The position numbers were made by a program, and so were the translations under genes. DNA of 64,000 bases from Natrinema marinum. Lineage in GTDB: Archaea; Halobacteriota; Halobacteria; Halobacteriales; Natrialbaceae. The notes beneath the pieces are model-generated. The model worked only from the letters and a program-made list of their open reading frames with translations, had not been told where the DNA came from and made no database searches. The stretch is taken from assembly GCF_024296685.1 (NCBI RefSeq), contig NZ_CP100763.1, positions 1,488,001-1,552,000 of the forward strand. Reading direction: 5' to 3'. Shown piece by piece: positions 18,778 through 55,022 of the stretch (the stretch's first letter is position 1; every line of letters begins with the position of its first letter).

Positions 18778-19764
18778 ATGACACTCTCGAGCGCTCCCGG
18801 CAAGGTGTACCTGTTCGGGGAGCACGCGGTGGTCTACGGCGAACCCGCCGTACCGTGTGCGATCGAGCGGCGCGCGCGGGTCGAGGTACAGCGACGCGAC
18901 GACGAGAAGCTCCGCGTCCACGCCGAAGACCTCAGTCTGGACGGCTTTACTGTCGAGTACGACGGTACGGCAGGGAACGGACCCGACGTGGACGTCTCGG
19001 AATCGCTGATCAGCGCCGCGATGGGCTACGTCGACGGCGCGATCGAGCAGGTCCGCGAAGTCACCGGCGAGGACGAGGTCGGCTTCGACGTGACGATCGA
19101 GAGCGACATCCCGCTGGGCGCGGGGCTGGGCTCGTCGGCGGCGGTCGTCGTCGCCGCCATCGACGCCGCGGCCCGCGAACTCGGTGTCACCCTCGAGACG
19201 GACGAACTCGCGGAGCGCGCCTACTGGACGGAACATCAGGTCCAAGACGGGCAAGCCTCGCGAGCGGACACGTTCTGCTCTGCGACCGGCGGCGCGGTCC
19301 GCGTCGAGGGCGACGACTGCCGCACGATAGAGGCTCCCGATCTGCCGATCGTGATCGGATTCGACGGCGGCGCGGGCGACACCGGCCAGTTGGTCGCGGG
19401 CGTTCGCGACCTGCGCGAGGAGTACGACTTCGCCGCGAGCACGGTCGAAGCGATCGGCAACATCGTTCGAAACGGGGAGGACGCGCTCGCGGCCGGCGAC
19501 ATCGAGGAACTCGGTCGGCTGATGGACTTCAATCACGGGCTGCTGTCCGCGCTGGGCGTCTCCTCGCGCTCGCTCGATACGATGGTCTGGGCGGCCCGCG
19601 ACGCGGGCGCACGCGGCGCGAAGCTGACCGGTGCCGGCGGGGGCGGTTGTATCGTCGCGCTGGACCCGACCGAGGAGACGGAGACCGCCCTGTCGTTCAC
19701 CCCCGGCTGTGAGGATACCTTCCGGGCGGAACTCGCCGACGAGGGGGTGTGCCGCCTCGAATGA
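18778..19764 (+). CDS. mvk: mevalonate kinase
   Basis: GHMP-family kinase that phosphorylates mevalonate to mevalonate 5-phosphate in the archaeal mevalonate pathway. It has 328 residues. Motif 1 is PGKVYLFGEHAVVYG (residues 7-21), motif 2 PLGAGLGSSAAV (112-123) is the ATP loop, and motif 3 KLTGAGGGGC is near residue 285. The catalytic aspartate region is EHQVQDGQASRADTF. The stop overlaps the ipk start by four bases. mvk followed by ipk is the archaeal alternative mevalonate pathway arrangement; its products feed idsA at 25604. Confidence 0.95.
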   Translation: MTLSSAPGKVYLFGEHAVVYGEPAVPCAIERRARVEVQRRDDEKLRVHAEDLSLDGFTVEYDGTAGNGPDVDVSESLISAAMGYVDGAIEQVREVTGEDEVGFDVTIESDIPLGAGLGSSAAVVVAAIDAAARELGVTLETDELAERAYWTEHQVQDGQASRADTFCSATGGAVRVEGDDCRTIEAPDLPIVIGFDGGAGDTGQLVAGVRDLREEYDFAASTVEAIGNIVRNGEDALAAGDIEELGRLMDFNHGLLSALGVSSRSLDTMVWAARDAGARGAKLTGAGGGGCIVALDPTEETETALSFTPGCEDTFRAELADEGVCRLE

Positions 19765-20501
19765 TCGTTCTCAAACTCGGCGGCAGCGTCATCACCGAGA
19801 AAGACCGCGCGGAGACGCTCGACGGCGACGCCCTGTCGCGGGCGGCCGACGCCATCGCGGCGGCGCTCGAAAACGACCGGGAAAACTTCGTGATCGTCCA
19901 CGGCGGCGGAAGCTTCGGCCACCACAACGCCAGCGAACACGGCGTCAGCACGACCGCGGGGACCCGCGACGCCAACGCGGTGCTCGACATCCACGGTGCG
20001 ATGACGACGTTGAACCGGTTCGTGCTAAGCCGGTTGCTCGAGCGCGGCGTAGGGGCGGTGCCGGTTCATCCGTTTTCGACGGCTCACCGCGACGGCGAGG
20101 GCCGGCTCGAACTGCCGACTGGGCAGGTCGAAACGATGCTCGCGGAGGGGTTCGTCCCCGTCCTCCACGGCGACGTGATCGCCCACGCGGGCGCGGGCGC
20201 GACCGTCGTCAGCGGCGACGAACTCGTGGCGACGCTCGCCCGCGACCTCGAGGCGGACCGAGTCGGCCTCTGTTCGACCGTTCCCGGCGTCCTGGACGAG
20301 GGTGACGCGGTGATCGACCGGATCGACGAGTTCGACGCCGTCGCCGACGTGCTAGGGGCCAGCGACGCCACCGACGTGACCGGCGGGATGGCCGGCAAGG
20401 TTCGAACGCTGCTCGAACTCGAGGCGAAAGCGTCGATCTTCGGGCTCGAGTCGCTCGAGTCGTTCCTCGAGGGCGCGGCTCCGGGGACGACGATCGACTG
20501 A
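19761..20501 (+). CDS. ipk: isopentenyl phosphate kinase
   Basis: Amino-acid-kinase-fold enzyme that converts isopentenyl phosphate to isopentenyl diphosphate, the last step of the archaeal mevalonate pathway. It has 246 residues. The glycine-rich loops are LKLGGSVITEK (residues 4-14) and HGGGSFGHH (47-55), the latter characteristic of IPK, with VTGGMAGKVRTLLELE near the C terminus. The ATG at 19761 overlaps the mvk stop. In many haloarchaea an isopentenyl diphosphate isomerase (fni) gene follows, but here the next gene is trkH on the other strand. Confidence 0.94.
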   Translation: MIVLKLGGSVITEKDRAETLDGDALSRAADAIAAALENDRENFVIVHGGGSFGHHNASEHGVSTTAGTRDANAVLDIHGAMTTLNRFVLSRLLERGVGAVPVHPFSTAHRDGEGRLELPTGQVETMLAEGFVPVLHGDVIAHAGAGATVVSGDELVATLARDLEADRVGLCSTVPGVLDEGDAVIDRIDEFDAVADVLGASDATDVTGGMAGKVRTLLELEAKASIFGLESLESFLEGAAPGTTID

Positions 20502-25603: not shown

Positions 25604-26656
25604 ATGACGAGCCCCGAGGCACGCGAAGAGGCGGTGCTCGAGGCGGTCCGGCAGCGCCGCGAGCAAGTCAACGAAGCGATCCCCGAGGAGTTGCCGATCC
25701 AGCGGCCCGAGCGACTCTACGAGGCCTCACGGTACCTCCTCGACGCGGGCGGCAAACGGCTGCGGCCCGCCGTCCTGTTGACGACCGCGGAGGCCCTGGC
25801 CGACGTCGACCCGCTCTCGGCGGACTACCGGTCGTTCACGCCGCTCGACGATGGGGATGCGGTCGACGTGATGGCCGCCGCCGTCAGCGTCGAGGTCATC
25901 CAGTCGTTTACCCTGATCCACGACGACATCATGGACGACGACGACCTCCGGCGCGGCGTCCCAGCCGTCCACAAGGAGTACGACCTCGAGACGGCCATTC
26001 TGGCCGGTGACACGCTCTACTCGAAAGCCTTCGAGATCATGCTCGAGACGGGGGCCGAGTCCGACCGCATCGTCGACGCGCTCGACGTGCTCGCGACGAC
26101 CTGTACGAAGATCTGCGAGGGCCAGTCGCTGGACGTCACCTTCGAGGAGCGCACCGACGTCTCGCCCGACGAGTACCTCGAGATGGTCGAACAGAAGACC
26201 GCCGTGCTGTACGCCGCCTCCGCGTGTCTCCCCGCGATCTTGCTGGGCGCCGACGACGACACGATCGACGCGCTCTACGGTTACGGTCTCGACATCGGCC
26301 GCGCGTTCCAGATCCAAGACGACGTGCTCGATCTAACGGTCCCCAGCGAACAACTCGGCAAGCAGCGCGGGAGCGACCTCGTGGAGAACAAACAGACGCT
26401 GATCACCGTCCACGCCCGTGAACAGGGCGTCGACGTCGATGACTTGGTCGATACCGACGACGTGGACGCGGTCACCGAGGCCGAGATCGACGACGCGGTC
26501 GCCGAACTCGAGGCGGCCGGCTCGATCTCCTACGCCAACGACACCGCCCGCGACCTCGTCGAACAGGGCAAGGAGCGACTCAAGGTCCTGCCGGACAACG
26601 AGGCCCGCGACCTCCTCTGTGAGATCGCTCACTACCTGATCGAGCGCGGTTACTGA
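25604..26656 (+). CDS. idsA: short-chain isoprenyl diphosphate synthase (FPP/GGPP)
   Basis: Trans-prenyltransferase that builds farnesyl and geranylgeranyl diphosphate, the precursors of archaeal ether lipids. It has 350 residues. The first aspartate-rich motif is DDIMD within SFTLIHDDIMDDDDLRRG, and the second is DD in GRAFQIQDDVLDL. A phenylalanine five residues before the first motif is the chain-length feature of archaeal GGPP synthases. The N-terminal LLDAGGKRLRP binds the allylic/IPP diphosphate. It probably shares a message with rnj (1-base gap). It receives substrate from the mvk-ipk pathway. Confidence 0.93.
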   Translation: MTSPEAREEAVLEAVRQRREQVNEAIPEELPIQRPERLYEASRYLLDAGGKRLRPAVLLTTAEALADVDPLSADYRSFTPLDDGDAVDVMAAAVSVEVIQSFTLIHDDIMDDDDLRRGVPAVHKEYDLETAILAGDTLYSKAFEIMLETGAESDRIVDALDVLATTCTKICEGQSLDVTFEERTDVSPDEYLEMVEQKTAVLYAASACLPAILLGADDDTIDALYGYGLDIGRAFQIQDDVLDLTVPSEQLGKQRGSDLVENKQTLITVHAREQGVDVDDLVDTDDVDAVTEAEIDDAVAELEAAGSISYANDTARDLVEQGKERLKVLPDNEARDLLCEIAHYLIERGY

Positions 26657-52744: not shown

Positions 52745-53053
52745 TTAGATCCGGCTCTTCTCCTGATTCTGTGCGCGCAGGTGGGCCGCGGTGACGAGCA
52801 GCGTCTTGTCCTTGCCGCCGTCGTTGATCTGGACCTTGAACGCGCTGCCCTGTTTCCCGACGACCTCACCGGTGCGACCGTCGAACCGTGGGTGGAAGCG
52901 ACCGTCCGAGACGCTGGGGTCGATCTTCAGGTGGACCTTCTCACCTGCTTCGTACTCTTGGATCGCGCGCTGTGGCGGCGAGGTGCCGCGATCTCGAGGG
53001 TCGTTCGCGAGCTTTCTCCGCGTTCCCTGACGAGGGCCATTGGACTTCGGCAT
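52745..53053 (-). CDS. rpl21e: 50S ribosomal protein eL21
   Basis: A 102-residue large-subunit protein. The start at 53053 gives [20 protein letters not shown], matching the archaeal family; the upstream frame is discarded. The rest ([40 protein letters not shown]) is diagnostic. First gene of the rpl21e-rpoF-DUF655-rsmA group. TATA-like sequence lies about 33 bases upstream. Confidence 0.96.
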
Positions 53054-53082
53054 AGTCGTACGACCGGATTGTCCGGTGACGG

Positions 53083-53090
53083 TTATAAAA
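53083..53090 (-). promoter_or_regulatory. TATA-like box for rpl21e-rpoF
   Basis: On the minus strand the sequence TTTTATAA is centred about 33 bases before the rpl21e ATG at 53053. This leaves room for a leader of only a few bases. Confidence 0.55.
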
Positions 53091-53185
53091 CACACGTATT
53101 ACGCCCACCTTTTTGGACCTCGGGATTCCTCGCTGCGCGAGGAACCGCTCGGGGCAAAAACTTAGAGCAGAAAACCCGCGCTCGC

Positions 53186-54190
53186 TTATTTGAACCCTTC
53201 GCTAGCGAGGTGATAGCGCAGGAGCCGTTCGAATCCCTCGAGATAGGCTTCGAGGTCGACGCTGTCGATCTCGGGCACGAACTCGGAGGCGTGCTCGTAT
53301 TCGGCGTTCCAACGCTCCAGAAAATGGTCTTCGACGCCGGACTCGTCGATCGTGTCGACGACCGAGGCGACCGCCTCTTCGGTCGGCTCGCGTCGTATCT
53401 CCCGAATCCGATCCGGCGAGACGATCCCGTTCTCGAGGGCGTGGACGACGACGCCGGAACTGCAGTCGCCTTCGGCGAGTTCCCGCTTCCACGTCGAGAC
53501 CCAGTTGCCGATGCGGGCCATCCGCTGGGTTCGATCGCAGATCCGACGCAGCAGCGAGAGTTCGCGGGCATCGAACGACGGCGCGTTTGCGAGGTCGATG
53601 TCCGCGTACACGAATAGCATCATGTTGTGCACGTCGTGTGCCCAGAGCTCCCGTTCCGAGACGAGGGCGGGGTTGTCATTTACGAGATACGAGTATTCGA
53701 CCGCCCGAAAGACCCGCCGGAGATCGAACCGAAAGAGCTCCGCGAACTCCGCTGATCGAGGCCCGGATTCGTACAGGGCCTCGAACTCGTCCCAGACGGC
53801 CGTCAGGAACCGAACGGTTTCACCGTCGACATCGCGACGCGACGGGTCGGAGCGTCGGTCGTCGAACGGTATCTTCGTCAGTTCGTCGAACGTCGCCCGA
53901 TCGCCGTGTTGCTCGGCGACATCGTCCGCGACGACGGCGAAAATCGTAGCGACCAGTTTCGCGTTGCGGACCGCGCGTGCGCGACCGTCGTCGACACACG
54001 AGAGTCGGACGCTCGGAAAGAGGTGATAGAGCCAGCGCCAGAGAAAGCGGTCCCTGTCGGCAGCGGTCTCGTCGTACGAATCGATCAGCGGGAGGACGGT
54101 GTCAGGGAGTTCCTGTCGTCGAACGGCCTGAACCGGATCTCCGTCGTCTTCGAAGGAAAGGGGTCGAAACTCGTTCAGCATTACGAACAT
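53186..54190 (-). CDS. class I terpene synthase-like protein (candidate cyclase)
   Basis: A 334-residue alpha-helical protein with the class I terpene cyclase signature. The aspartate-rich motif is DDVAE (D89, D90, E93). The NSE-type motif is NWVSTWKRE (N229, T233, E237), and the C terminus has R325-Y326, about 88 residues later, as in bacterial terpene cyclases. Motif spacing fits sesquiterpene synthases. A trans-prenyltransferase is unlikely, because it would need two DDxxD motifs. The start at 54190 is set by a TATA box 27 bases upstream. Possible substrates are farnesyl or geranylgeranyl diphosphate. The gene is alone on its strand; the MBL-fold gene is divergent. Confidence 0.6.
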   Translation of the reverse strand: MFVMLNEFRPLSFEDDGDPVQAVRRQELPDTVLPLIDSYDETAADRDRFLWRWLYHLFPSVRLSCVDDGRARAVRNAKLVATIFAVVADDVAEQHGDRATFDELTKIPFDDRRSDPSRRDVDGETVRFLTAVWDEFEALYESGPRSAEFAELFRFDLRRVFRAVEYSYLVNDNPALVSERELWAHDVHNMMLFVYADIDLANAPSFDARELSLLRRICDRTQRMARIGNWVSTWKRELAEGDCSSGVVVHALENGIVSPDRIREIRREPTEEAVASVVDTIDESGVEDHFLERWNAEYEHASEFVPEIDSVDLEAYLEGFERLLRYHLASEGFK

Positions 54191-54220: not shown

Positions 54221-54248
54221 TTCATACATTTACAATAGTGAATAGTCC

Positions 54249-54301: not shown

Positions 54302-54326
54302 CCCACTGGCTCCGAATGTGGGTGGT

Positions 54327-55022
54327 ATGACGGAAACCGCTGGTATCCACGCGCTACCGGTCACGGTCGAGTACGGCGGCCGAGCGATCACGATCACCCC
54401 CGCAGTCGTCGAGACCGACCGCGGGCTCGTTCTCATCGATGCCGGTCCCGAGGGGACCGTCGGCTCCCTCGAGACACACCTGACGAGTCTGGGATACGAA
54501 CTCACCGACATCTGGCTGGTGGTCCTCACGCACCACGACGGAGATCACGTCGGCGGTCTGGCGGAACTGCTCGAGCGCGTCGATGCGGTCGTCGCGACCC
54601 ACCGCGAGGAAGCGCCGTACGTCTCGGGCGAGCGCGATCCGATCAAGGGCGACGGGGATCGCTATCCGCCGGTCGGCGTCGACCTCGAGCTGGTCGACGG
54701 GGTTCGGATCCCGACCCTCGGTGGCCCGATGGAGGTCGTCGCGACGCCCGGCCACGCGCCGGGTCACGTCTCGTTGTACTTCCCGGAAGGGAACCTCCTG
54801 ATCGCCGGCGACGCGCTCGTTGCGGACGTCGGTGAGGGAACCGACGGTGACGGACCGCTCGATGGACCGAAACCGCACTTCACGCCCGACATGGACCGTG
54901 CCACAGAGTCGGTCGGCTCGCTGGCCGCACTCGAGGTCGATCACACGCTGTGTTATCACGGTGGATACGTCGACCAGGGGTCCGAACGGATTCGAGAGAT
55001 CTACGAACGGCTTCGGGAGTGA
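54327..55022 (+). CDS. MBL-fold metallo-hydrolase
   Basis: A 231-residue metallo-beta-lactamase-fold hydrolase, distinct from the UPF0173 type. The metal site HHDGDH (69-74, in LVVLTHHDGDHVGG), GHAPGHVSLYFPE and IAGDALVADV are visible. The C terminus has CYHGG. It resembles glyoxalase II-like and other MBL hydrolases without a fixed substrate. The ATG at 54327 is taken with the upstream AGCTAT repeat. It faces the terpene synthase-like gene across about 135 bases, so they may be coregulated, but a functional link is not shown. Confidence 0.85.
   Translation: MTETAGIHALPVTVEYGGRAITITPAVVETDRGLVLIDAGPEGTVGSLETHLTSLGYELTDIWLVVLTHHDGDHVGGLAELLERVDAVVATHREEAPYVSGERDPIKGDGDRYPPVGVDLELVDGVRIPTLGGPMEVVATPGHAPGHVSLYFPEGNLLIAGDALVADVGEGTDGDGPLDGPKPHFTPDMDRATESVGSLAALEVDHTLCYHGGYVDQGSERIREIYERLRE

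Follow-up and report, generated by a model that had tools for sequence, protein, structure and literature searches.

Organization of the locus

The window, by which we mean the whole 64-kb stretch of DNA analysed, is part of one 3.77-Mb contig whose closest named relatives are Natrinema species. It contains a reading frame of 334 codons on the minus strand, an orientation that the initial annotation had not given, and this frame encodes the terpene synthase-fold protein P0001 (Table 1). The sequence elements first noted in the 334-residue frame, namely DDVAE at residues 89-93, NWVSTWKRE at residues 229-237 and an RY pair at residues 325-326, all read as described. An alignment with 23 relatives places the conserved start of the protein at the column of Met4 of the 334-residue version, and a TATA-like, AT-rich stretch lies just upstream of position 54190. 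Because of these two features we consider that the protein probably has 331 residues and starts at position 54181. A further upstream ATG at position 54229 would lead to a version of 347 residues, within whose extension the TATA-like stretch would fall, and this longer version is unlikely.

Table 1. Coordinates of the features discussed, numbered from the first nucleotide of the window
Feature	Position	Strand	Basis or remark
Terpene synthase-fold protein P0001, 334 aa	53186..54190	minus	ORF reading
Probable CDS from Met4, 331 aa	53186-54181	minus	start kept in relatives
Asp-rich motif D89-D90-V-A-E93	53912..53926	minus	C-terminal end of predicted helix 68-93
Putative helix G break region, residues 179-201	53588..53656	minus	AlphaFold2 model and alignment
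NSE triad variant N229-W-V-S-T233-W-K-R236-E237	53480..53506	minus	inside predicted helix 208-239
R325-Y326	53213..53218	minus	sequence
Ribosomal protein L21e	52745..53095	minus	next gene downstream; housekeeping, unrelated to function
Metallo-beta-lactamase-fold hydrolase	54318..55022	plus	divergent neighbour
idsA-type polyprenyl diphosphate synthase	25604..26656	plus	likely substrate supplier
Mevalonate kinase mvk (GHMP kinase)	18778-19764	plus	name from family and gene order
Isopentenyl phosphate kinase ipk (amino acid kinase family)	19749-20501	plus	name from family and gene order

The gene sits between the divergent metallo-beta-lactamase-fold gene and a group of genes for L21e, Rpb4, DUF655 and KsgA. 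The metallo-beta-lactamase-fold gene also adjoins the family gene in related Natrinema and Natrialba loci, and several of the window neighbours recur at loci of Natrinema, Natrialba and Haloterrigena. The window also encodes mvk, ipk and idsA, which had been put forward as suppliers of substrate. All three are indeed present, but they lie 27-35 kb away among housekeeping genes, and we reject the idea that they form a biosynthetic cluster with the terpene synthase-fold gene: they provide the entire cell with isoprenoid precursors and are no cluster marker. The P450 of the genome is ~155 kb from the gene, outside the window.

A predicted class I terpene synthase fold

We modelled the protein with AlphaFold2 from a 66-row alignment, obtaining a mean pLDDT of 94.3 and a pTM of 0.91. 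The predicted fold, as judged from the model and its structural matches, is the all-alpha fold of class I terpene synthases. In a VIA-align search the best 50 matches are all terpene synthases, aligned over 252-294 residues with Z scores of 20.0-21.7, well above the value of about 13 given for chance matches between helical proteins. They include bornyl diphosphate synthase (Z 21.7 over 286 residues), 10-epi-cubebol synthase (21.3), selinadiene synthase (20.4) and epi-isozizaene synthase (20.1). Foldseek returned matches with E-values down to 1.9e-4, headed by hydropyrene synthase and followed by VenA and T-muurolol synthase, with GGPP and FPP synthases mixed in at similar E-values. The Asp-rich and NSE motifs occupy the positions that we take to correspond to helices D and H in the class I terpene synthase fold.

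Sequence profiles lead to the same family. The window protein scores 20.8 bits against PF19086 (Terpene_syn_C_2), just under the curated cut-off of 23.7, and the profile matches 22 of the 23 close homologs at E-values up to 0.1 (best 5.7e-8) and 45 of the 66 broader homologs at E-values up to 0.01 (best 2.3e-8). Terpene_syn_C_2 and Terpene_synth_C are the sole Pfam families that recur in the homologs, and an unrelated family was not returned. PDB sequences yielded no convincing match to the protein alone or to two profiles (nothing, or E >= 0.4), and a search of the window protein against NCBIfam gave none. Polyprenyl diphosphate synthases are distinguished by PF00348, which the protein does not match, and by two DDxxD motifs, in place of which it has one Asp-rich motif. 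The Pfam squalene/phytoene synthase family (SQS_PSY) is likewise unmatched in the window protein and its homologs. Another gene of the genome also matches PF19086 weakly, but its sequence identifies it as a phytoene synthase, and it was set aside.

Conserved and missing motif residues

The protein combines a DDxx(E/D) Asp-rich motif with N, S/T and E at positions N, N+4 and N+8 near residue 230. Among 66 aligned relatives D89 and D90 are invariant and position 93 is Glu in 59 and Asp in 7, whilst N229, R236 and E237 are present in every sequence and position 233 is Thr in 65 and Ser in one. Conservation on this scale implies that the two metal motifs are not a matter of chance. The variant Asp-rich motif has a precedent in the DDRAE form of DDxxE, which occurs in an active enzyme (PMC5082573). 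Methanogen-like members also keep the metal motifs. The most distant member read (L129) has NTVNTWKRE as its NSE motif, so that all three ligands are kept but the Trp after the Asn is not. In at least one diverged member (L134, with NDLSD) the first Asp of the Asp-rich motif is changed.

The residues around these motifs are less orthodox. In class I terpene synthases a sensor Arg and an NSE Asp normally act as a pair that couples diphosphate binding to ionisation. The Arg is expected 46 residues upstream of the NSE triad (PMC8450962), which corresponds to residue 183 of the window protein, but a conserved Arg is absent from this position in the 66 relatives (Glu in 18, Arg in 13, Trp in 11, Thr in 8, and others). 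The second NSE position, where Asp is expected, is Trp (W230) in all 66, bearing out the initial description of the motif as a variant. Since both members of the pair are absent throughout the family, they have been lost together. Positions 245-246 are Ser or Ala followed by Gly in nearly all 66 sequences, and the Asn expected 8-9 residues after the triad is missing. The C-terminal RY pair is also not kept in the family (Arg in 19 of 66, Tyr in 36 of 66). The description of the window protein as having the full motif set therefore goes too far: the two metal motifs are present, but RY is no family feature, and neither the sensor Arg nor the Asp of the NSE motif is found in the family.

Other positions are strictly maintained. 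The region where the helix G break would lie is predicted to form helices at residues 179-184, 186-190 and 192-201, interrupted at 185 and 191, and contains the invariant N189 and D199. E240 and D242, which come after the NSE triad, are likewise invariant, as are four arginines, R46, R215, R226 and R236.

Occurrence of the family and its genomic settings

Halobacteria commonly carry the family, which also occurs in some methanogens. Matches were obtained in 27 of the 61 related genomes sampled and, across the phylum, in 26 of 295 genomes. In the GTDB contig collection 103 relatives were confirmed by a pattern scan tuned to this family, which could miss distant bacterial relatives. Nearly all of the 80 listed are from Halobacteria, and the matches listed from outside that class include one MAG of Methanohalobium and another of an unclassified archaeon. 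Several genomes of other families within the phylum also have members. The initial view that such proteins are uncommon in archaea is thus wrong for this lineage. Pairwise dN/dS among close pairs is roughly 0.05-0.4, and the family is therefore under purifying selection.

Six large haloarchaeal plasmids carry members (CP031304.1, NZ_CP100001.1, NZ_CP044524.1, NZ_CP031312.1, NZ_CP100462.1 and NZ_CP126159.1), which public records annotate as 'hypothetical protein'; a search of phage records found no relative. Some genomes have two or three diverged copies, as in Halobacteriales archaeon QS_5_70_17 (L048, L051 and L056) and Natrinema ejinorense (L031 and L093), and at locus L043 a second copy lies directly upstream of the first. 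Two genomes of the same phylum from outside the order (G156 and G199) have degenerate copies with internal stops (L130 and L132), suggesting, from the sequences, repeated loss. One further member (L108), on a 6.3-kb contig labelled Lysobacteraceae (JAACEG010000083.1), adjoins genes for a methyltransferase and a 7TM histidine kinase. The GC content of this contig, 30%, is unlike that of the high-GC Lysobacteraceae; we set it aside as a bacterial member and regard it as probably a mis-binned archaeal contig.

Across the 80 loci no shared tailoring enzyme was found. Most frequent among the neighbours is a BAT/HTH_10 regulator carrying PAS and GAF domains, which is immediately adjacent in 24 loci (including L049, L053, L055, L057, L062, L066-L069, L072, L107 and L109) and within the examined flanks in 32; at least three arrangements occur (divergent, upstream and downstream). 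Given 12-30 BAT genes per genome, about one adjacent case is expected by chance; the neighbourhoods are related by descent, and so the 24 cases are not 24 independent events. Light or redox control is a possible explanation of the adjacency. No BAT-type regulator lies beside the gene in the window.

Discussion

From the modelled fold and the conserved motifs we consider it very likely that the window gene encodes a Mg2+-dependent class I terpene synthase with variant diphosphate recognition, belonging to a family widespread in haloarchaea. The original assignment to class I terpene synthases is in this respect supported by the predicted fold together with the metal motifs, and metal binding, catalysis, substrate, product and role are what we infer for the window protein. 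D89, D90 and E93 on one helix and N229, T233 and E237 on a facing helix would bind three Mg2+ ions, which would anchor the diphosphate group of a linear prenyl substrate (FPP, GGPP or GFPP, supplied by the archaeal mevalonate pathway). The enzyme would ionise this substrate to an allyl cation, and cyclisation or quenching of the cation would give a small terpene hydrocarbon or alcohol. Recognition of the diphosphate may have been taken over by R236, the K/R of the NSE motif, perhaps together with R226, R215 and R46; as judged from their invariance, these four residues could be substitutes for the missing sensor Arg.

The alternative that survives best, though we think it improbable, is a class I prenyltransferase or diphosphate hydrolase of the same fold, which would ionise a prenyl diphosphate and then join it to another acceptor or free the alcohol, for example in lipid or quinone metabolism. 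Such an enzyme would share the Mg2+ motifs, which point to ionisation chemistry only, and would be in keeping with the GGPP and FPP synthases in the Foldseek list and with the several diphosphate-recognition residues that are unlike those of cyclases. It is difficult to reconcile with the exclusive presence of terpene synthases among the best 50 VIA-align matches, with the lack of a second DDxxD motif and of any polyprenyl synthetase or SQS_PSY match, and with a genome that has its own idsA and phytoene synthase. Still less probable is a non-catalytic descendant of a terpene synthase, such as a ligand-binding sensor paired with BAT/PAS regulators. The excess of BAT/HTH_10 neighbours over chance and the loss of some accessory diphosphate-binding residues would fit this proposal, but the BAT loci share descent, no such regulator adjoins the gene in the window, and both metal motifs, for which a pure sensor would have no use, are retained with essentially no exceptions. 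A last reading, that an unrelated helical protein matches the motifs by chance, is favoured by the Pfam score of the window protein alone but is refuted, as far as computation can do so, by the fold match, the family-wide invariance of both motifs and the family-wide Pfam matches.

Going beyond the assignment as a class I terpene synthase, we tentatively suggest, as a proposal that could well be wrong, that the family is a distinct archaeal subclass in which the pair of sensor Arg and NSE Asp has been replaced family-wide by W230 with R226, R215 and R46, and which makes a terpenoid, perhaps from a C20-C25 substrate and under BAT-type control in many haloarchaea.

Archaea make isoprenoids for every membrane lipid, and dedicated terpene cyclases have, to our knowledge, hardly been described in them. 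A conserved and unannotated family in haloarchaea and some methanogens would give these organisms small-molecule terpenoids. It would also be a source of enzymes that tolerate salt, and a natural test of how class I synthases trigger ionisation when the customary Arg sensor and NSE Asp are lacking.

No description of this archaeal family, with its variant set of recognition residues, was found in the literature searched, and it appears to be undescribed there. The kind of enzyme is known, since the MARTS-DB article (PMC12797696) speaks of archaeal terpene synthases as rare and refers to a preprint by Samusevich et al. (bioRxiv 10.1101/2024.01.29.577750), the title of which claims terpenoid biosynthesis in archaea; archaeal examples may have been published already.

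Within the same genome, haloarchaeal phytoene synthase (SQS_PSY) and IdsA (polyprenyl synthetase) belong to the same superfamily and use prenyl diphosphate substrates, but they have other motifs and are encoded by separate genes elsewhere. The bacterial class I terpene synthases of PF19086, such as selinadiene, epi-isozizaene, 10-epi-cubebol and T-muurolol synthases, share with the archaeal family a common fold (Z 20-21), a similar length, the same order and spacing of motifs (Asp-rich at ~90, NSE at ~230) and a K/R before the NSE Glu. Identity over the structural alignments is only 8-12%, and the archaeal family differs in having Trp for Asp at the second NSE position and Ser/Ala-Gly for the Asn 8-9 residues past the triad, in lacking the sensor Arg 46 residues upstream and in not keeping the RY pair.

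A parallel for these substitutions is the sestermobaraene synthase SmTS1, an active sesterterpene synthase with Gly for the sensor Arg, Gln for the NSE Asp and Arg in place of the Asn 8-9 residues after the triad (PMC8450962). As SmTS1 is active with Gln at the second NSE position, we treat the NSE Asp as accessory. The RY pair and the Asn after the triad are likewise taken as accessory features of class I terpene synthases and not as defining ones. The two systems differ in that the Asp-rich motif of SmTS1 is NDLTV whereas that of the archaeal family is intact, and in that the NSE Asp is replaced by Gln in SmTS1 and by an invariant Trp across the 66 archaeal sequences. They have in common the paired loss of the sensor Arg and the NSE Asp, and since SmTS1 is active in spite of it, this loss is no argument against activity in the archaeal family.
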